64,000 nucleotides of DNA from Roseovarius sp. THAF27 (GTDB lineage Bacteria > Pseudomonadota > Alphaproteobacteria > Rhodobacterales > Rhodobacteraceae), in assembly GCF_009363655.1 (NCBI RefSeq), contig NZ_CP045393.1, positions 248,001 through 312,000 on the forward strand, written 5' to 3'. Positions 9,114 through 14,005 of the stretch are shown here, in pieces. Below the pieces are notes generated by a model, which worked only from the letters and a program-made list of their open reading frames with translations, did not search any database and was not told where the DNA came from. A program made the position numbers and the translations under genes. Numbering within the stretch: position 1 is the first letter of the stretch; the number at the start of each line of letters is the position of its first letter.

Positions 9114-9656
9114 TTACTCTGCCTCGGTTTCCGGGTCGGGGTCGGTCTGCGCCTCTGCGGAGGGGTCCGGGGCGGGGGCAGATATGGGATCGAAAGCGCC
9201 CACCGAGATATCCAGCAGAACCCACCGCCGGCCTTCGTTTACCAGCACCATGTCAAAGCTGAAATGTTGTGGCCGGGTCGGAAAGTACCCTGTGAGCCGC
9301 ATCTGCTGACCCCCGGCGGCAATCTTGGCCTGGAGGATTTCAGGCTCGGTCACAAGGACCGGCAGCATGTCGAGACCGGCCTCGCGCACCGGCGTGAAGA
9401 GCCCGGCAAGCCGAGTCGGATCGTTCGCGGCGGAAAACTCGGGCGCGGCATAATCCCTCAGCACGGTATAATTGCCCGTCCAGTTGCCGTGATTCACGGC
9501 CGTCATGATGTCGCGTATCAGCGCGACGGCAAAGCTGCGCTCGACCTGCTCCTGTGCGGCCGCATGTCCGGTCATGAGCACTACGGCGAAAAGCGCCGCA
9601 ACGATCCGTTGCGACGCTCCCTTCTTGGCGTGACGTGTTGCCGTTACCAGGCCCAT
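9114..9656 (-). CDS. Secreted hypothetical protein overlapping the adhesin gene
   Basis: 180 residues. A signal peptide (about 1-34, ending GHAAAQ) precedes a soluble domain with alternating helices and strands (FAVALIRDIMTAVNHGNW, then FSFDMVLVNEGRRWVLLDI). The C-terminal tail is rich in Pro/Glu/Asp. The fold could be NTF2-like, which is only an impression. The ATG at 9654-9656 lies inside the last codons of the trimeric autotransporter gene (13-base overlap), so the two are almost certainly cotranscribed and coupled. Secreted helper proteins encoded beside trimeric autotransporters are known (SadB in Salmonella, TpgA in Acinetobacter). A helper role here is inference. Confidence 0.7.
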   Translation of the reverse strand: MGLVTATRHAKKGASQRIVAALFAVVLMTGHAAAQEQVERSFAVALIRDIMTAVNHGNWTGNYTVLRDYAAPEFSAANDPTRLAGLFTPVREAGLDMLPVLVTEPEILQAKIAAGGQQMRLTGYFPTRPQHFSFDMVLVNEGRRWVLLDISVGAFDPISAPAPDPSAEAQTDPDPETEAE

Positions 9657-11629
9657 GTCACCCCGACACGGCCACCGGTCTGGTTGTTGTCGAAACCGTG
9701 GGCGAGACCGGCGTCGAACTGCACGGAATCGCTCGCGCGGAACCCCATGTTGAGCGCGAAGGCGGTCTTGCCTTCGAAGGCGCCGACACCGGTGGACAAG
9801 GCGAAGGTCCGGTCGCTGGGCACGTAGGGCGCATCGAGGGCCATCGCCATCGCGATACCTTCCTTGTTGTTCTCGATGCCACGCGCGTTCGACGCAATCC
9901 CACGGGAGTTTGCCGCAATCGATCCTGTATTGGCCTGGACCGCGCTGGTCAGCGCCGCCGTCGGCAGCGCGGAATTGTCGACGGCCAGGTTACCCGCGGC
10001 GTCCGTCGTCAGGTAGCCGACGACGGCACCCTGCGCCGCGGTGCTTTCTGCGGAGTTGATGCCGGGCGTGGTATAGGTGTTCTGCGCGTTGCCGAGGACG
10101 AACTGGTTGGCGTTGGTGGCTTGGGCCCCGTCACCGATTGCGACCGAGTTGGTGGCCGTGGCCGTTGCCAGGTTGCCGAAGGACAGCGACCGCTCGCCGG
10201 ACGCGACGGCCCCTTCGCCGACCGCCGTGGACCGCACACCGCTTGCACGGGCAAGGTGGCCGAACGCTTGTGCACGCTCTGCCGTTGCCATGGCTTGCCA
10301 GCCCATCGCCGTGGCGCCGGGGCCGGTTGCGACGGTTTCGCCGCCGACTGCCGTGGTCGAGGGGCCGGTGGCCTGCGAGGTGTCACCGAAGGCAATCGAG
10401 TCGATGCCGTTCGCGATGGCCTTGTTGCCGATGGCGGTGGCGTTGTCGGTCTGCGCGTCGGCGTTTTCACCGACCGCGAGGCTGCGGACGCCTTGTGCCG
10501 TCGCAAGGTGCCCGAAGGCTTGCGCGCGTTCGGCTGTTGCCTGGCTTTGCCAGCCGATGGCGGTGGTGCCGGGGCCGGTCGCGACGGTTTCGCCGCCGAC
10601 TGCGGTGGTGGAGGGGCCGGTGGACTGCGAGGTGTCACCGAAGGCAATCGAATCGACGCCGTTCGCGATGGCCTCGTTGCCGATGGCGGTGGCGTTGTCG
10701 GTTTGCGCGTCGGCGTTCTCGCCAACGGCGAGGCTGCGGACGCCCTGTGCGGTCGCGAGATGCCCGAAGGCCTGTGCGCGTTCCGCCGTCGCCTGGCTCT
10801 GCCAGCCGATGGCGGTGGTGCCGGGGCCGGTCGCGACGGTTTCGCCGCCGACTGCGGTGGTGGAGGGGCCGGTGGCCTGCGAGGTGTCACCGAAGGCAAT
10901 CGAATCGACGCCGTTCGCGATGGCCTCGTTGCCGATGGCGGTGGCGTTGTCGGTCTGCGCGTCGGCGTTTTCACCGACCGCGAGGCTGCGGACGCCCTGT
11001 GCGGTTGCCAGATGCCCGAAGGCCTGTGCACGTTCGGCTGTTGCCTGGCTTTGCCAGCCGATGGCGGTGGTGCCGGGGCCGGTCGCGACGGTTTCGCCGC
11101 CGACTGCGGTGGTGGAGGGGCCGGTGGCCTGCGAGGTGTCACCGAAGGCAATCGAATCGACGCCGTTCGCGATGGCCTCGTTGCCGATGGCGGTGGCGTT
11201 GTCGGTTTGCGCGTCGGCGTTCTCGCCAACCGCGAGGCTGCGGACGCCCTGCGCGGTTGCGAGGTGCCCGAAGGCCTGTGCGCGTTCGGCTGTTGCCTGG
11301 CTTTGCCAGCCGATGGCGGTGGTGCCGGGGCCGGTTGCGACGGTCTCGCCGCCGACTGCGGTGGTGGAGGGGCCGGTGGCTGCGGCTTCGGACCCGATGG
11401 CGATGCCGTCGGTCGACGTTGCATCGGTCACCGACTGATCCCCGATGGCGACCGAGAAGTCACCGTTCGAGGTGCTGTTTTCGCCGCATTCGACGCTATT
11501 GGTGCCAGCGCCCGTGTTGCAGGGTGCGGTTGTGTCCGCCATCGCCGCGTGGCTGCCGGCGAGGACAAAGACGATGGCCGTGCCGCTGCGCAGCAGCGCA
11601 CGGCGTGGGGATTGTGTGATGGAGAACAT
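9644..11629 (-). CDS. Trimeric autotransporter adhesin (YadA family)
   Basis: 661 residues. An extended signal peptide (1-31, ending SHAAMA) is followed by a head of YadA-type motifs of the form SVAIGxxSxAxG. Residues 84-419 consist of four 84-residue units that are almost identical and contain phrases such as TTAIGWQSQATAERAQAFGHL and RSLAVGENADAQTDNATAIG. A partial fifth unit follows. After a short stalk, the last ~75 residues match the YadA membrane anchor (from GIAMAMALDAPYVP to the terminal VTWAW). Such proteins trimerise in the outer membrane and bind surfaces or host matrix. This is the first gene of a two-gene unit. No strong ribosome binding site is seen upstream of the ATG. Confidence 0.93.
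   Translation of the reverse strand: MFSITQSPRRALLRSGTAIVFVLAGSHAAMADTTAPCNTGAGTNSVECGENSTSNGDFSVAIGDQSVTDATSTDGIAIGSEAAATGPSTTAVGGETVATGPGTTAIGWQSQATAERAQAFGHLATAQGVRSLAVGENADAQTDNATAIGNEAIANGVDSIAFGDTSQATGPSTTAVGGETVATGPGTTAIGWQSQATAERAQAFGHLATAQGVRSLAVGENADAQTDNATAIGNEAIANGVDSIAFGDTSQATGPSTTAVGGETVATGPGTTAIGWQSQATAERAQAFGHLATAQGVRSLAVGENADAQTDNATAIGNEAIANGVDSIAFGDTSQSTGPSTTAVGGETVATGPGTTAIGWQSQATAERAQAFGHLATAQGVRSLAVGENADAQTDNATAIGNKAIANGIDSIAFGDTSQATGPSTTAVGGETVATGPGATAMGWQAMATAERAQAFGHLARASGVRSTAVGEGAVASGERSLSFGNLATATATNSVAIGDGAQATNANQFVLGNAQNTYTTPGINSAESTAAQGAVVGYLTTDAAGNLAVDNSALPTAALTSAVQANTGSIAANSRGIASNARGIENNKEGIAMAMALDAPYVPSDRTFALSTGVGAFEGKTAFALNMGFRASDSVQFDAGLAHGFDNNQTGGRVGVTWAW
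10373..11380 (-). repeat. Four tandem 252-bp coding repeats in the adhesin head
   Basis: Each 252-bp unit encodes 84 residues. The CGCCGCCGACTGC segment recurs at 10591, 10843 and 11095, exactly 252 bases apart. Units differ by scattered silent changes and a few substitutions, such as an Ala to Ser change between two units and Glu to Lys plus Val to Ile in the last. Mutual identity this high suggests recent duplication or gene conversion and predicts length variation between strains. Confidence 0.95.
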
Positions 11630-11782: not shown

Positions 11783-11811
11783 GTGACACGCGCGGGCGAC
11801 TGGATTATGAA
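11783..11811 (+). promoter_or_regulatory. Probable promoter of tRNA-Arg
   Basis: GTGACA at 11783-11788 and TATGAA at 11806-11811 are separated by 17 bases. The predicted start lies a few bases before the mature tRNA 5' end at 11821. Confidence 0.5.
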
Positions 11812-11820
11812 CGCGGCAGC

Positions 11821-11897
11821 GGCCCCGTGGCTCAACTGGATAGAGCAGCCCCCTCCTAAGGGGCAGGTTGCAGGTTCGAATCCTGCCGGGGTCGCCA
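11821..11897 (+). tRNA. tRNA-Arg, anticodon CCT
   Basis: 77 bases fold into a complete cloverleaf with encoded CCA. The acceptor stem is GGCCCCG with CGGGGTC (one G-T pair) and discriminator G. The D arm is GCTC with GAGC. The anticodon stem is GCCCC with GGGGC around loop CTCCTAA, giving anticodon CCT (reads AGG, Arg). The T arm is GCAGG with CCTGC around TTCGAAT. The gene is followed 16 bases later by the inserted element at 11914. Confidence 0.96.
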
Positions 11898-11913
11898 GTC
11901 TTCCGCGTGCAAC

Positions 11914-12385
11914 GGCCAATGCACCATAAGCTTGCACGTTTGGGCGGTTTTCATGCCCACTGCCAGTCAAGGGGGAATTTTAAGTCCGACACAATCGGCC
12001 CAACTTCGAGGTATCCTGGCTGTTCATGCTAAGAGCTTGCTTAGCAGTCGTTCGTGTCCCGGCTGGCGAATGGCCGCATCGAGCCCTTTGCGGACAAGTG
12101 TGATCTATTTCCCCGAGCGCCATCGACGGGCCGCGGCGCGGCGATCCGACGGTAGTTCGGCAGCACTTTATCGAGGCCAAATCCGAAACAGGATGGAGCG
12201 ATTCACCGTACTTCACCCAATCGCCGGGCCGTGGGGGCGGCCCGTCGATGGCGCGGGGCCTGCGGCCTGTTTCCGCGCCGGGGCTGTAGATCAAACGTCT
12301 TTTATGTCCGCTGAGCCGCCATTCTCGAGTGCCATAAGCAATATCCTCGCACATCCGATCTGTACATGCTTATGGTGCGTTGGCA
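11914..12385. mobile_element. MITE-like non-autonomous element with target duplication
   Basis: A 472-bp segment without a plausible gene. Its ends are 24-base imperfect inverted repeats, 20 of 24 matching: 11914-11937 contains GCACCATAAGC and 12362-12385 contains GCTTATGGTGC. It is bracketed by the perfect direct repeat CGTGCAAC (11906-11913 and 12386-12393), which looks like an 8-bp target-site duplication. Inside, 12117-12134 and 12237-12254 form a perfect 18-base inverted repeat, GCGCCATCGACGGGCCGC and its complement, around a further partly paired loop. The right end stops one base short of the BCCT gene's stop codon. No transposase is present; the transposon family is not identified. 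Confidence 0.75.
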
Positions 12386-12394
12386 CGTGCAACG

Positions 12395-14005
12395 TCAGAA
12401 CTTCGTCAGACCGGGACGCTTGCCGATGGTGATGTGATCGATCTCCTCGTTGCGCAAGCCGAGGATCAGGGCGGGAATCATCAGGAACACCAGGCAGAAG
12501 ATCGGCAGGCCGACAACGGTGATGACCTGTTGCAGGGCCGTCAGTCCGGCGTCGCCGGCGAGGACGATCAGCATCGTGGCCACCAGCCCTTCGGAGACGC
12601 CCCAGAACACGCGCTGACGGGTCGGGCCGGGATCGGGGGAGCCGGTGCAGAGCATGTCGACCACCAGCGAGGCGGAGTCCGAAGAGGTTGCGAAGAAAAT
12701 CGCGACCACGAGCACGGCGATACCCTGTACGAGGTCGGCGAAGGGGAAGTTTTCGAAGAAGGCGAACATGGCGAGCGGCACCGACTCGGCCACCGCATCG
12801 CTGAGCGCGCCGGCCTGATCGCCCAGCGCCTCGCGCGCGGCGGCGCCGATGCCGTCGATTTCCATCGCCTGCCAGCCGAAGATCGAGAACCAGATCAGGG
12901 TGAAGAGCGAGGGCGCCAGAAGGACCCCGAAGACGAATTCGCGGATCGTGCGCCCGCGCGAGATCCGGGCCACGAAGAGGCCGATGAAAGGGGACCACGT
13001 CACGGTCCAGGCCCAGTAGAAGACGGTCCAGCCGCCCTGCCAGCCCCAGCCGTCGGAATCGGGGCCAATATCGGCCAGCATGTCGTTCCAGAACGCGAGG
13101 CGCGGAAGGTTGCCGAGGTAAAGCCCGACGGTTTCAACCATGCCGCGCAGCAGGAACAGCGTCGAGCCGCAGATCAGCACGAAGATCATCAGGCCCACGG
13201 CCATGCCGATATTGATGTTCGACAGCAGCTTCACGCCCTTGTCGAGGCCCGCTACGATGGAGACCACGGCCACGGCCGTCAGCACCGTGAGGATCGCGAC
13301 CTTGAGCATGACGCCGCTTTCCCAGCCGAACAGGGCCTCGAGCCCGGCGGCGATCTGGGACGAGCCGAGGCCGAGCGAGACCGCGACGCCGAAGAGCGTG
13401 CCGAGAACCGCAGCGATGTCGATGGCTTTGCCCCACGGGCCGTAGATCCGATCCTTGAGAAGGGGGTAGAAGACCGAACTGACCCGCACGGGCAGGTCGT
13501 AGCGATTGATGAAATAGGCAAAGGCCAGCCCCGGCAGGGCGAAGATCGTCCAGGTGTGCAGGGCGAGGTGGTAGGTGGCGATGGAGATCGCGTCTTGCGC
13601 GGCCTCCTGGGAGAAGGGCTCGACCCCGGGCAGGGGCGGGGTGGCGAAATGGCTCATGGGTTCGGCCACGCCCCAGAACATCAGCACCGTGCCGATGCCG
13701 CCGGCGAAGAGCATCGTGAACCAAGACAGGTTGGTGTAATCGGGGCGCGAATCGCGCGGGCCGAGACGGATATGGCCATGACGGCTCATGGCGGTCCACA
13801 CCAGGAAGCCAAGCCAGAGGTTCACCCCTAGGATGAAGAACCACCCCAGGTGAGAGACGATCCAGGCGCGCCCGGCAGCGAAGGCGTCGCCGATGGGTTC
13901 GGGGGCAATGACCAGTGCGAGGACGAAAACGAGGGTGAAGATTGCGGATACGGAAAAAATCACCGGATCGGTTTTCAGGCCCATCCGTTCAACCCACGTA
14001 GTCAT
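12395..14005 (-). CDS. BCCT-family betaine/carnitine/choline-type transporter
   Basis: 536 residues with about twelve membrane helices. BCCT carriers take up quaternary ammonium compounds such as glycine betaine, choline or DMSP with sodium or protons. Family hallmarks are LFAGGIGTVLMFWGVAEP near residues 99-116 and the conserved stretch FYWAWTVTWSPFIGLFVAR followed by ISRGRTIREF. The Trp-rich substrate box is present. The N-terminus is short, and the short C-terminal tail makes an osmosensing domain unlikely. The ATG at 14003-14005 is preceded by a GGGGG run. The mobile element sits immediately behind the stop codon. The substrate cannot be read reliably. Confidence 0.9.
   Translation of the reverse strand: MTTWVERMGLKTDPVIFSVSAIFTLVFVLALVIAPEPIGDAFAAGRAWIVSHLGWFFILGVNLWLGFLVWTAMSRHGHIRLGPRDSRPDYTNLSWFTMLFAGGIGTVLMFWGVAEPMSHFATPPLPGVEPFSQEAAQDAISIATYHLALHTWTIFALPGLAFAYFINRYDLPVRVSSVFYPLLKDRIYGPWGKAIDIAAVLGTLFGVAVSLGLGSSQIAAGLEALFGWESGVMLKVAILTVLTAVAVVSIVAGLDKGVKLLSNINIGMAVGLMIFVLICGSTLFLLRGMVETVGLYLGNLPRLAFWNDMLADIGPDSDGWGWQGGWTVFYWAWTVTWSPFIGLFVARISRGRTIREFVFGVLLAPSLFTLIWFSIFGWQAMEIDGIGAAAREALGDQAGALSDAVAESVPLAMFAFFENFPFADLVQGIAVLVVAIFFATSSDSASLVVDMLCTGSPDPGPTRQRVFWGVSEGLVATMLIVLAGDAGLTALQQVITVVGLPIFCLVFLMIPALILGLRNEEIDHITIGKRPGLTKF

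Follow-up and report, generated by a model that had tools for sequence, protein, structure and literature searches.

What occupies the interval between a tRNA-Arg gene and the gene of a BCCT-family transporter in Roseovarius sp. THAF27 (own genome, G000), and how did it come to lie there? Within the window, i.e. the complete stretch of 64,000 nucleotides that was analysed, ARAGORN and the Rfam tRNA model place a tRNA-Arg gene with anticodon CCT at 11821..11897 on the plus strand. The transporter gene is convergent with it (12395..14005, minus strand; an open reading frame with a DNA match to an annotated BCCT family transporter). Between the two lies a segment of 472 bp (11914..12385, plus strand, left end toward the tRNA) in which three marks are found: 24-base imperfect terminal inverted repeats that match in 20 of 24 positions, a perfect 8-bp direct repeat CGTGCAAC on either side (left copy 11906..11913, right copy 12386..12393), and a perfect internal inverted repeat of 18 bp (12117..12134 and 12237..12254, plus strand). 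A sequence-only reading of the locus had taken these marks as three independent signs of a MITE-like element. All three are present, but their independence did not survive, as the 18-bp repeat belongs not to the transposon but to a palindrome of about 235 bp that is separately dispersed in the genome.

That the 472-bp segment is a real insertion with target duplication follows decisively from an empty site in a relative of the same genus (G006), the very check that the sequence-only reading had proposed. G006 carries TTCCG-CGTATAAC-GTCAG, or with longer flanks GCCAGGTTTCCG-CGTATAAC-GTCAGAATTTGG, where the window carries GCCAGTCTTCCG-CGTGCAAC-(472 bp)-CGTGCAAC-GTCAGAACTTCG. Read onward from the tRNA-Arg gene, G006 has GGTTTCCG-CGTATAAC-GTCAGAATTTGG followed by the BCCT gene, and the window has GTCTTCCG-CGTGCAAC-(472 bp)-CGTGCAAC-GTCAGAACTTCG; the single copy CGTATAAC of G006 differs from the window repeat CGTGCAAC in 2 of 8 bases. 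A scan of the window for inverted pairs of 24 bp (at least 20 matches, span 300-700 bp) returned 6 matches, two of which are neighbouring registers of the 472-bp element, and no other match than this element is flanked by a perfect 8-bp repeat. In 12 first-order Markov shuffles of the window, 23 such pairs arose in total, again none of them so flanked. It is the right repeat that lies one base from the BCCT stop codon (12395-12397, minus strand); the element proper lies nine bases away, and the suggestion that it supplies the 3' coding end of the gene is contradicted by G006, where the gene ends at the same stop although the element is missing. A search of 11800-12500 for terminator-like sites found none.

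The tRNA-Arg/BCCT junction (window 11897-12395) is an integration hotspot: empty in G006, it holds about 2.3 kb in G012, with a fragment of a tRNA 3' end among them, and between the same two genes 17.5 kb lie in G016 and 61.9 kb in G035. On the other side of the tRNA gene, at 9644-11629 (minus strand), lies a 661-aa open reading frame with repeated motifs such as NATAIGNEAIANGVDSIAFGDTS, which seem to resemble those in the head of trimeric autotransporter adhesins.

The kinship of the ends was established by a pattern scan of genome contigs for 17 bases of the terminal repeat, which gave 79 stretches, many of them chance matches. Most matches within the Rhodobacterales extend inward as TGCCAATGCACCATAAGCTTGCACG.TTTGGCG...CATGCACACCCCCTGTCAAG, and pairs of facing ends were found 22.9 kb apart in Rhodovulum (G108), 12.7 kb in Pseudodonghicola (G110), 11.9 kb in Tropicimonas (G113) and 30.6 kb in Salipiger (G120). 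The Pfam gene scan, which among these four long elements covered those of G108 and G110, recovered inside the G110 element: TniQ (PF06527, E 8.1e-19), a TniB-type ATPase (PF05621, E 3.2e-10) and a protein of 757 aa that matches rve weakly (PF00665, E 4.6e-4, under the curated cut-off), a transposase for which no sequence match was found in the PDB. A 263-aa protein of G110 overlaps the start of this transposase, in the position where TnsA is expected; as a candidate TnsA it found no match in Pfam or PDB, and that identity was set aside. The low rve score and the missing matches of these two proteins count against the Tn7-like reading. Near such ends, Rhodovulum has both TniQ and TniB, Thioclava and Pseudodonghicola have TniQ, and Rhodobacter sp. 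TJ_12 has an rve match, so that the search for a transposase with the same ends, which had also been advised beforehand, succeeded in other Rhodobacterales. The ends of the 472-bp element are thus related to those of elements that encode TnsB/TniA, TnsC/TniB and TnsD/TniQ, and the element itself carries no gene for a transposition protein (ORF list). Judged from these sequences, it is very probably a non-autonomous derivative of a Tn7-like transposon. The ends are rare: they occur within 2 mismatches in 11 of 395 genomes of the family, own genome included, and the reversed pattern matched in none of those 11. In the own genome only the two ends of the element itself match within 2 mismatches, and a genus-wide search for TniQ found there one distant homologue with 30% identity (G000:C1:964403-965419, L291). 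This homologue has an open frame of 612 aa, and another TniQ element may be present in the own genome.

These results bear on the alternative that the segment is a MITE of an insertion sequence family unrelated to Tn7. Families such as IS66, IS1595, IS256 and ISL3 make 8-bp duplications, and both the perfect 8-bp duplication and the short terminal repeats would suit such an origin. It is nevertheless highly improbable, given that matches to the ends and to the left arm next to them occur in elements with TniQ, TniB and an rve transposase, that the tips of relatives are found past tRNA genes in a single orientation (see below), and that the ends have no other copy in the own genome. Of the MITE-like label we retain the lack of autonomy and of a transposase, the target duplication, the terminal repeats and the place beside tRNA-Arg, but not the multicopy character. 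What the sequence-only reading missed is a miniature Tn7-like element placed past a tRNA gene like its relatives, with an interior that serves as an apparent cargo slot for a dispersed palindrome.

The position of the element argues in the same direction. Tn7-like transposons (CASTs of types I-B2 and I-D, and related elements) home to tRNA genes via TnsD/TniQ, according to two studies (PMC11406308, PMC10293859). A scripted search of the loci collected, allowing 4 substitutions, gave 62 distinct tips, 33 of which are of the left type (31 recognised by their inner motif, plus the left tips of the window and of Sulfitobacter G119b, which that motif missed). A tRNA 3'-end motif precedes 22 of the 33 left-type tips by 10-19 bp (16 bp from the 3' end of tRNA-Arg(CCT) in the window), and 1 of the 29 other tips, which are of the right type or chance matches in unrelated bacteria. 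Tn7-like homing predicts just such a fixed orientation past a conserved attachment gene. Against this reading we count 11 left tips that have no tRNA motif upstream, 4 of them at one plasmid site, 3 abutting another end and 4 elsewhere. ARAGORN called a tRNA beside 20 sites: 19 are tRNA-Arg (15 TCT, 3 CCT with the window included, and 1 CCG; 18 at left tips and 1 at a right-type tip) and one is a tRNA-Gln, next to an element that is more distantly related (its TniQ is 46% identical); at 3 of the 22 tRNA-side left tips the 3'-end motif is all that was found. The tRNA-Arg(CCT) gene at 11821..11897 is presumed to be the homing (attachment) gene of the element. The sole case found of a right-type end facing tRNA-Arg is at 12150 of L298 (G209:C1), and the ends of two Tn7-like elements sometimes lie a few bases apart (L215:1725-1734, L209:395-403, L278), as if inserted adjacently.

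In the details of its termini the element departs from its presumed family. A 5-bp target duplication is given as characteristic of Tn7 and its relatives in PMC11406308, and the 8 bp of the window count against membership. Comparison of 11 end pairs, with a twelfth (G289) read by eye, showed a perfect 5-bp duplication in 4 of the 12 (G110, G120, G118 and G119a, the latter two at one site), 7 bp in G112, 8 bp in the window, 6 of 8 matching bases in G108, where a second element abuts, and no duplication in 5 (G113, G119b, G122a, G122b and G289). The duplication of the window could be due to a longer stagger, or to 5 bp (CGTGC) followed by AAC; the longer stagger, which requires a single T to G change in the left tip, makes for the simpler history. 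The termini are not of the TG...CA form either, as the right end reads TG and the left end GG. Each end carries a single site-like motif, which by our interpretation represents a transposase site, where several are typical of Tn7-like elements. When such motifs were counted in the first 150 bases of 11 right ends (up to 1 mismatch), five elements had three of them (positions 12, 108 and 129), three had two (12 and 33) and three had only the one at 12: the window, SM26-46 and the 11.9-kb element of G113. A series of three, two and one motifs is what deletion between direct repeats would produce, and since the long G113 element also has one motif, a one-site right end neither proves inactivity nor is limited to mini-elements.

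We then turn to the interior. The palindrome extends over about 235 bp (12078..12316, plus strand; limits approximate, from BLAST matches, profile limits and the fold, with an overlap of a few bases with the arms), and an alignment and consensus fold of 25 copies place both arms of the 18-bp repeat in its stem. A BLAST search of the own genome gave 44 further matches to it, nine of them close copies; the 44 come from 40 of 72 first-look candidates that were scored and are neither a full nor a strict copy count. A 489-bp query matched 25 of 60 genomes, own included, of which 24 were among 35 relatives of the same genus, and none of 24 genomes of other families; copies of the palindrome also occur in Sulfitobacter and on plasmids of Pseudosulfitobacter and Salipiger, and close forms with the ends included were among the matches listed, in G000, G006, G012 and G035. 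The palindrome folds as a long hairpin (-115.5 kcal/mol for 239 bases, plus strand), and among the 31 consensus pairs of the 25-sequence alignment, 10 have changed on both sides with pairing preserved, with a small covariation term (-2.85); DNA palindromes can show such changes without any function as RNA. Clusters of palindromes sometimes alternate in orientation, and a second dispersed repeat family of about 230 bp (L010:1723-1964) follows directly after 6 of the 9 close copies (by eye), with many copies at 82-91% identity in G006, G012 and G035.

Several other identities were tried for the palindrome and for the element, and were set aside. A known structured RNA received no Rfam match, either in the window at gathering scores or at 5 loci with E up to 1. 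A REP/REPIN/RAYT system would come with a Y1 transposase, for which the own genome gave no match (the control matched in 5 of 14 known genomes). Coding capacity is contradicted by L015, one of the nine close copies, which has no open frame on either strand, so that no frame is open in all. A plasmid origin of the whole element was dismissed, as the matches cover palindrome positions only, among the 20 listed of 93 matching records, and a phage origin found no match.

The surroundings of the palindrome become clearer from the small relatives of the element. The left arm of the window (11914..12086, plus strand) runs from the terminal repeat with its single site-like motif through a GAGCCC junction at element position 168, and the right arm (12310..12385, minus strand) comprises the 76 bases between a GCTGAGCC junction and the end of the element, including the right terminal repeat with its single motif. 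In Aquimixticola (G122b), a 900-bp element beside tRNA-Arg has arms 82% and 81% identical to those of the window (the left across 173 bp), and its interior holds an open reading frame for a GNAT acetyltransferase (PF00583, E 4e-12). In Sulfitobacter (G119b), an element of 471 bp beside tRNA-Arg holds a palindrome 73% identical to that of the window, in the opposite orientation relative to the arms; the right arm of the window is about 80% identical to those of G119b, G119c and G122b. A single insertion site with the duplication CTTGG contains three types of cargo: in Pseudosulfitobacter DSM 26824, H46 and SC1-67, elements of 903, 903 and 901 bp with an open reading frame annotated as cbb3-type cytochrome c oxidase subunit I (COX1, E 9.7e-11); in Pseudosulfitobacter SM26-46, an element of 1447 bp with a 288-aa hypothetical protein; and in Sulfitobacter sp. 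20_GPM-1509m, one of 400 bp with apparently another palindrome (by eye). Arms and flanks are 96-97% identical between these types, save for one stretch of 87% where right-arm lengths differ. The cargo at one site thus differs between shared arms. GAGCCC is found at position 134 or 167-169 in all 6 mini-elements examined. In 4 of the 6, GCTGAGCCGCCATTC (allowing 3 mismatches) lies 76 or 97 bases inward of the right end; G119a lacks it, and G122b matches it only at a different place. These observations suggest that the stretch from GAGCCC to GCTGAGCC serves as a cargo slot that now holds the dispersed palindrome, and cargo may be exchanged by recombination at repeated motifs.

A competing account of the interior, which leaves the ends untouched, is that the palindrome is a mobile repeat that inserted into the mini-element by itself. 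Its 44 further matches, the similar limits that the nine close copies share, its reversed orientation between the arms of G119b and the absence of copies beside orthologous left-hand genes (two loci in three relatives, where the flanking genes are not adjacent) speak for it. Against it stand the lack of a clean empty site or target duplication for any copy, which carries little weight as the flanking genes at the two tested loci are separated in the relatives, and again the lack of a Y1 transposase in the own genome, and we consider this account quite possible, at somewhat less than even chances.

The same relatives bear on the question whether the element arrived small. A full-length Tn7-like transposon that inserted here and lost its genes in place would agree with the single copy in the own genome, with the shortened right arm and altered left tip, and with degraded TniQ genes, which do occur next to such ends (G090). 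The same arm layout and junctions are, however, seen at tRNA-Arg in other genera (G119b, G122b) and at a plasmid site, and independent decay would have to reproduce this shared layout across sites; we hold decay in place to be the less likely account, though far from negligible. Taken together, the element is, with good confidence, a single-copy, transposase-less miniature Tn7-like (TniA/TniB/TniQ) element beside tRNA-Arg(CCT), and we lean toward the view that it moved here already as a mini-element. In the history that we propose, the TniQ of an autonomous relative would have recognised the tRNA-Arg gene, TniB would have bridged, and the transposase, acting in trans, would have joined the mini-element ends to the site. 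Deletion between direct repeats may have shortened the right arm. From its sequence the element is probably immobile now, because of its changed left terminal base, its one-site right end and the detection of no more than a distant TniQ in the genome.

In a wider and distinctly speculative extension, mini Tn7-like elements at tRNA-Arg genes and on plasmids of marine Rhodobacterales would be frames whose cargo (palindromes, small genes) is swapped between junction motifs, GAGCCC on the left and GCTGAGCC on the right, which resemble those beside the palindromes genome-wide, recombination at these repeats loading new DNA into a frame that homes to a safe site: a cassette system without an integron integrase. 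Such movable, refillable frames, if real, would account for part of the variation beside tRNA-Arg in roseobacters, and if movable in trans they would allow small genes or hairpins to be placed at a harmless chromosomal site without transposition genes. The 8-bp duplication, if it stems from one transposition event, would bear on how rigidly Tn7-like transposases keep to a 5-bp stagger.

In the parts of the literature covered by our search, mostly non-subscription, we found no description of a Tn7-derived miniature, of tRNA-Arg homing in Rhodobacterales or of this palindrome (PMC11406308, PMC10293859, PMC8649781, PMC10969869, PMC3281130, PMC4133298); miniature transposase-less forms are described there for insertion sequences and Tn3, and none for tRNA-homing Tn7-like elements. 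Unusual here are the duplication of 8 instead of 5 bp and the cargo that varies between shared arms. Like REP/REPIN sequences and other dispersed palindromes of bacteria (PMC2817692), the palindromes are dispersed and sometimes clustered in alternating orientation; unlike REP/REPIN sequences, the palindrome measures about 235 bp and its own genome is without Y1 transposase. With MITEs and MICs, as outlined in PMC3281130, PMC4133298 and PMC10969869, the element shares its shortness, its terminal repeats and its lack of a transposase, and its gene-carrying relatives resemble MICs. It differs from them in its single copy (only the interior is repeated) and in ends that are Tn7-like and not those of an insertion sequence, and from MITEs also in its 472 bp, against the approximately 30-300 bp of their definition in the same sources. 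TIMEs are likewise miniature, transposase-less, usually present in single copy and able to carry other DNA, but derive from Tn3-family transposons, whereas the ends of the window element are Tn7-like and its site is a tRNA gene. Compared with the tRNA-homing Tn7-like elements themselves, it is without genes, its group is found mostly at tRNA-Arg, its duplication is 8 bp, no Cas gene stood out on casual inspection of the G110 ORFs, and the distance past the tRNA is 10-19 bp versus the 30-33 nt reported for CyCAST in PMC10293859; what it has in common with them is the TniQ-type target selector of its relatives and an insertion just past the tRNA gene in a fixed orientation.
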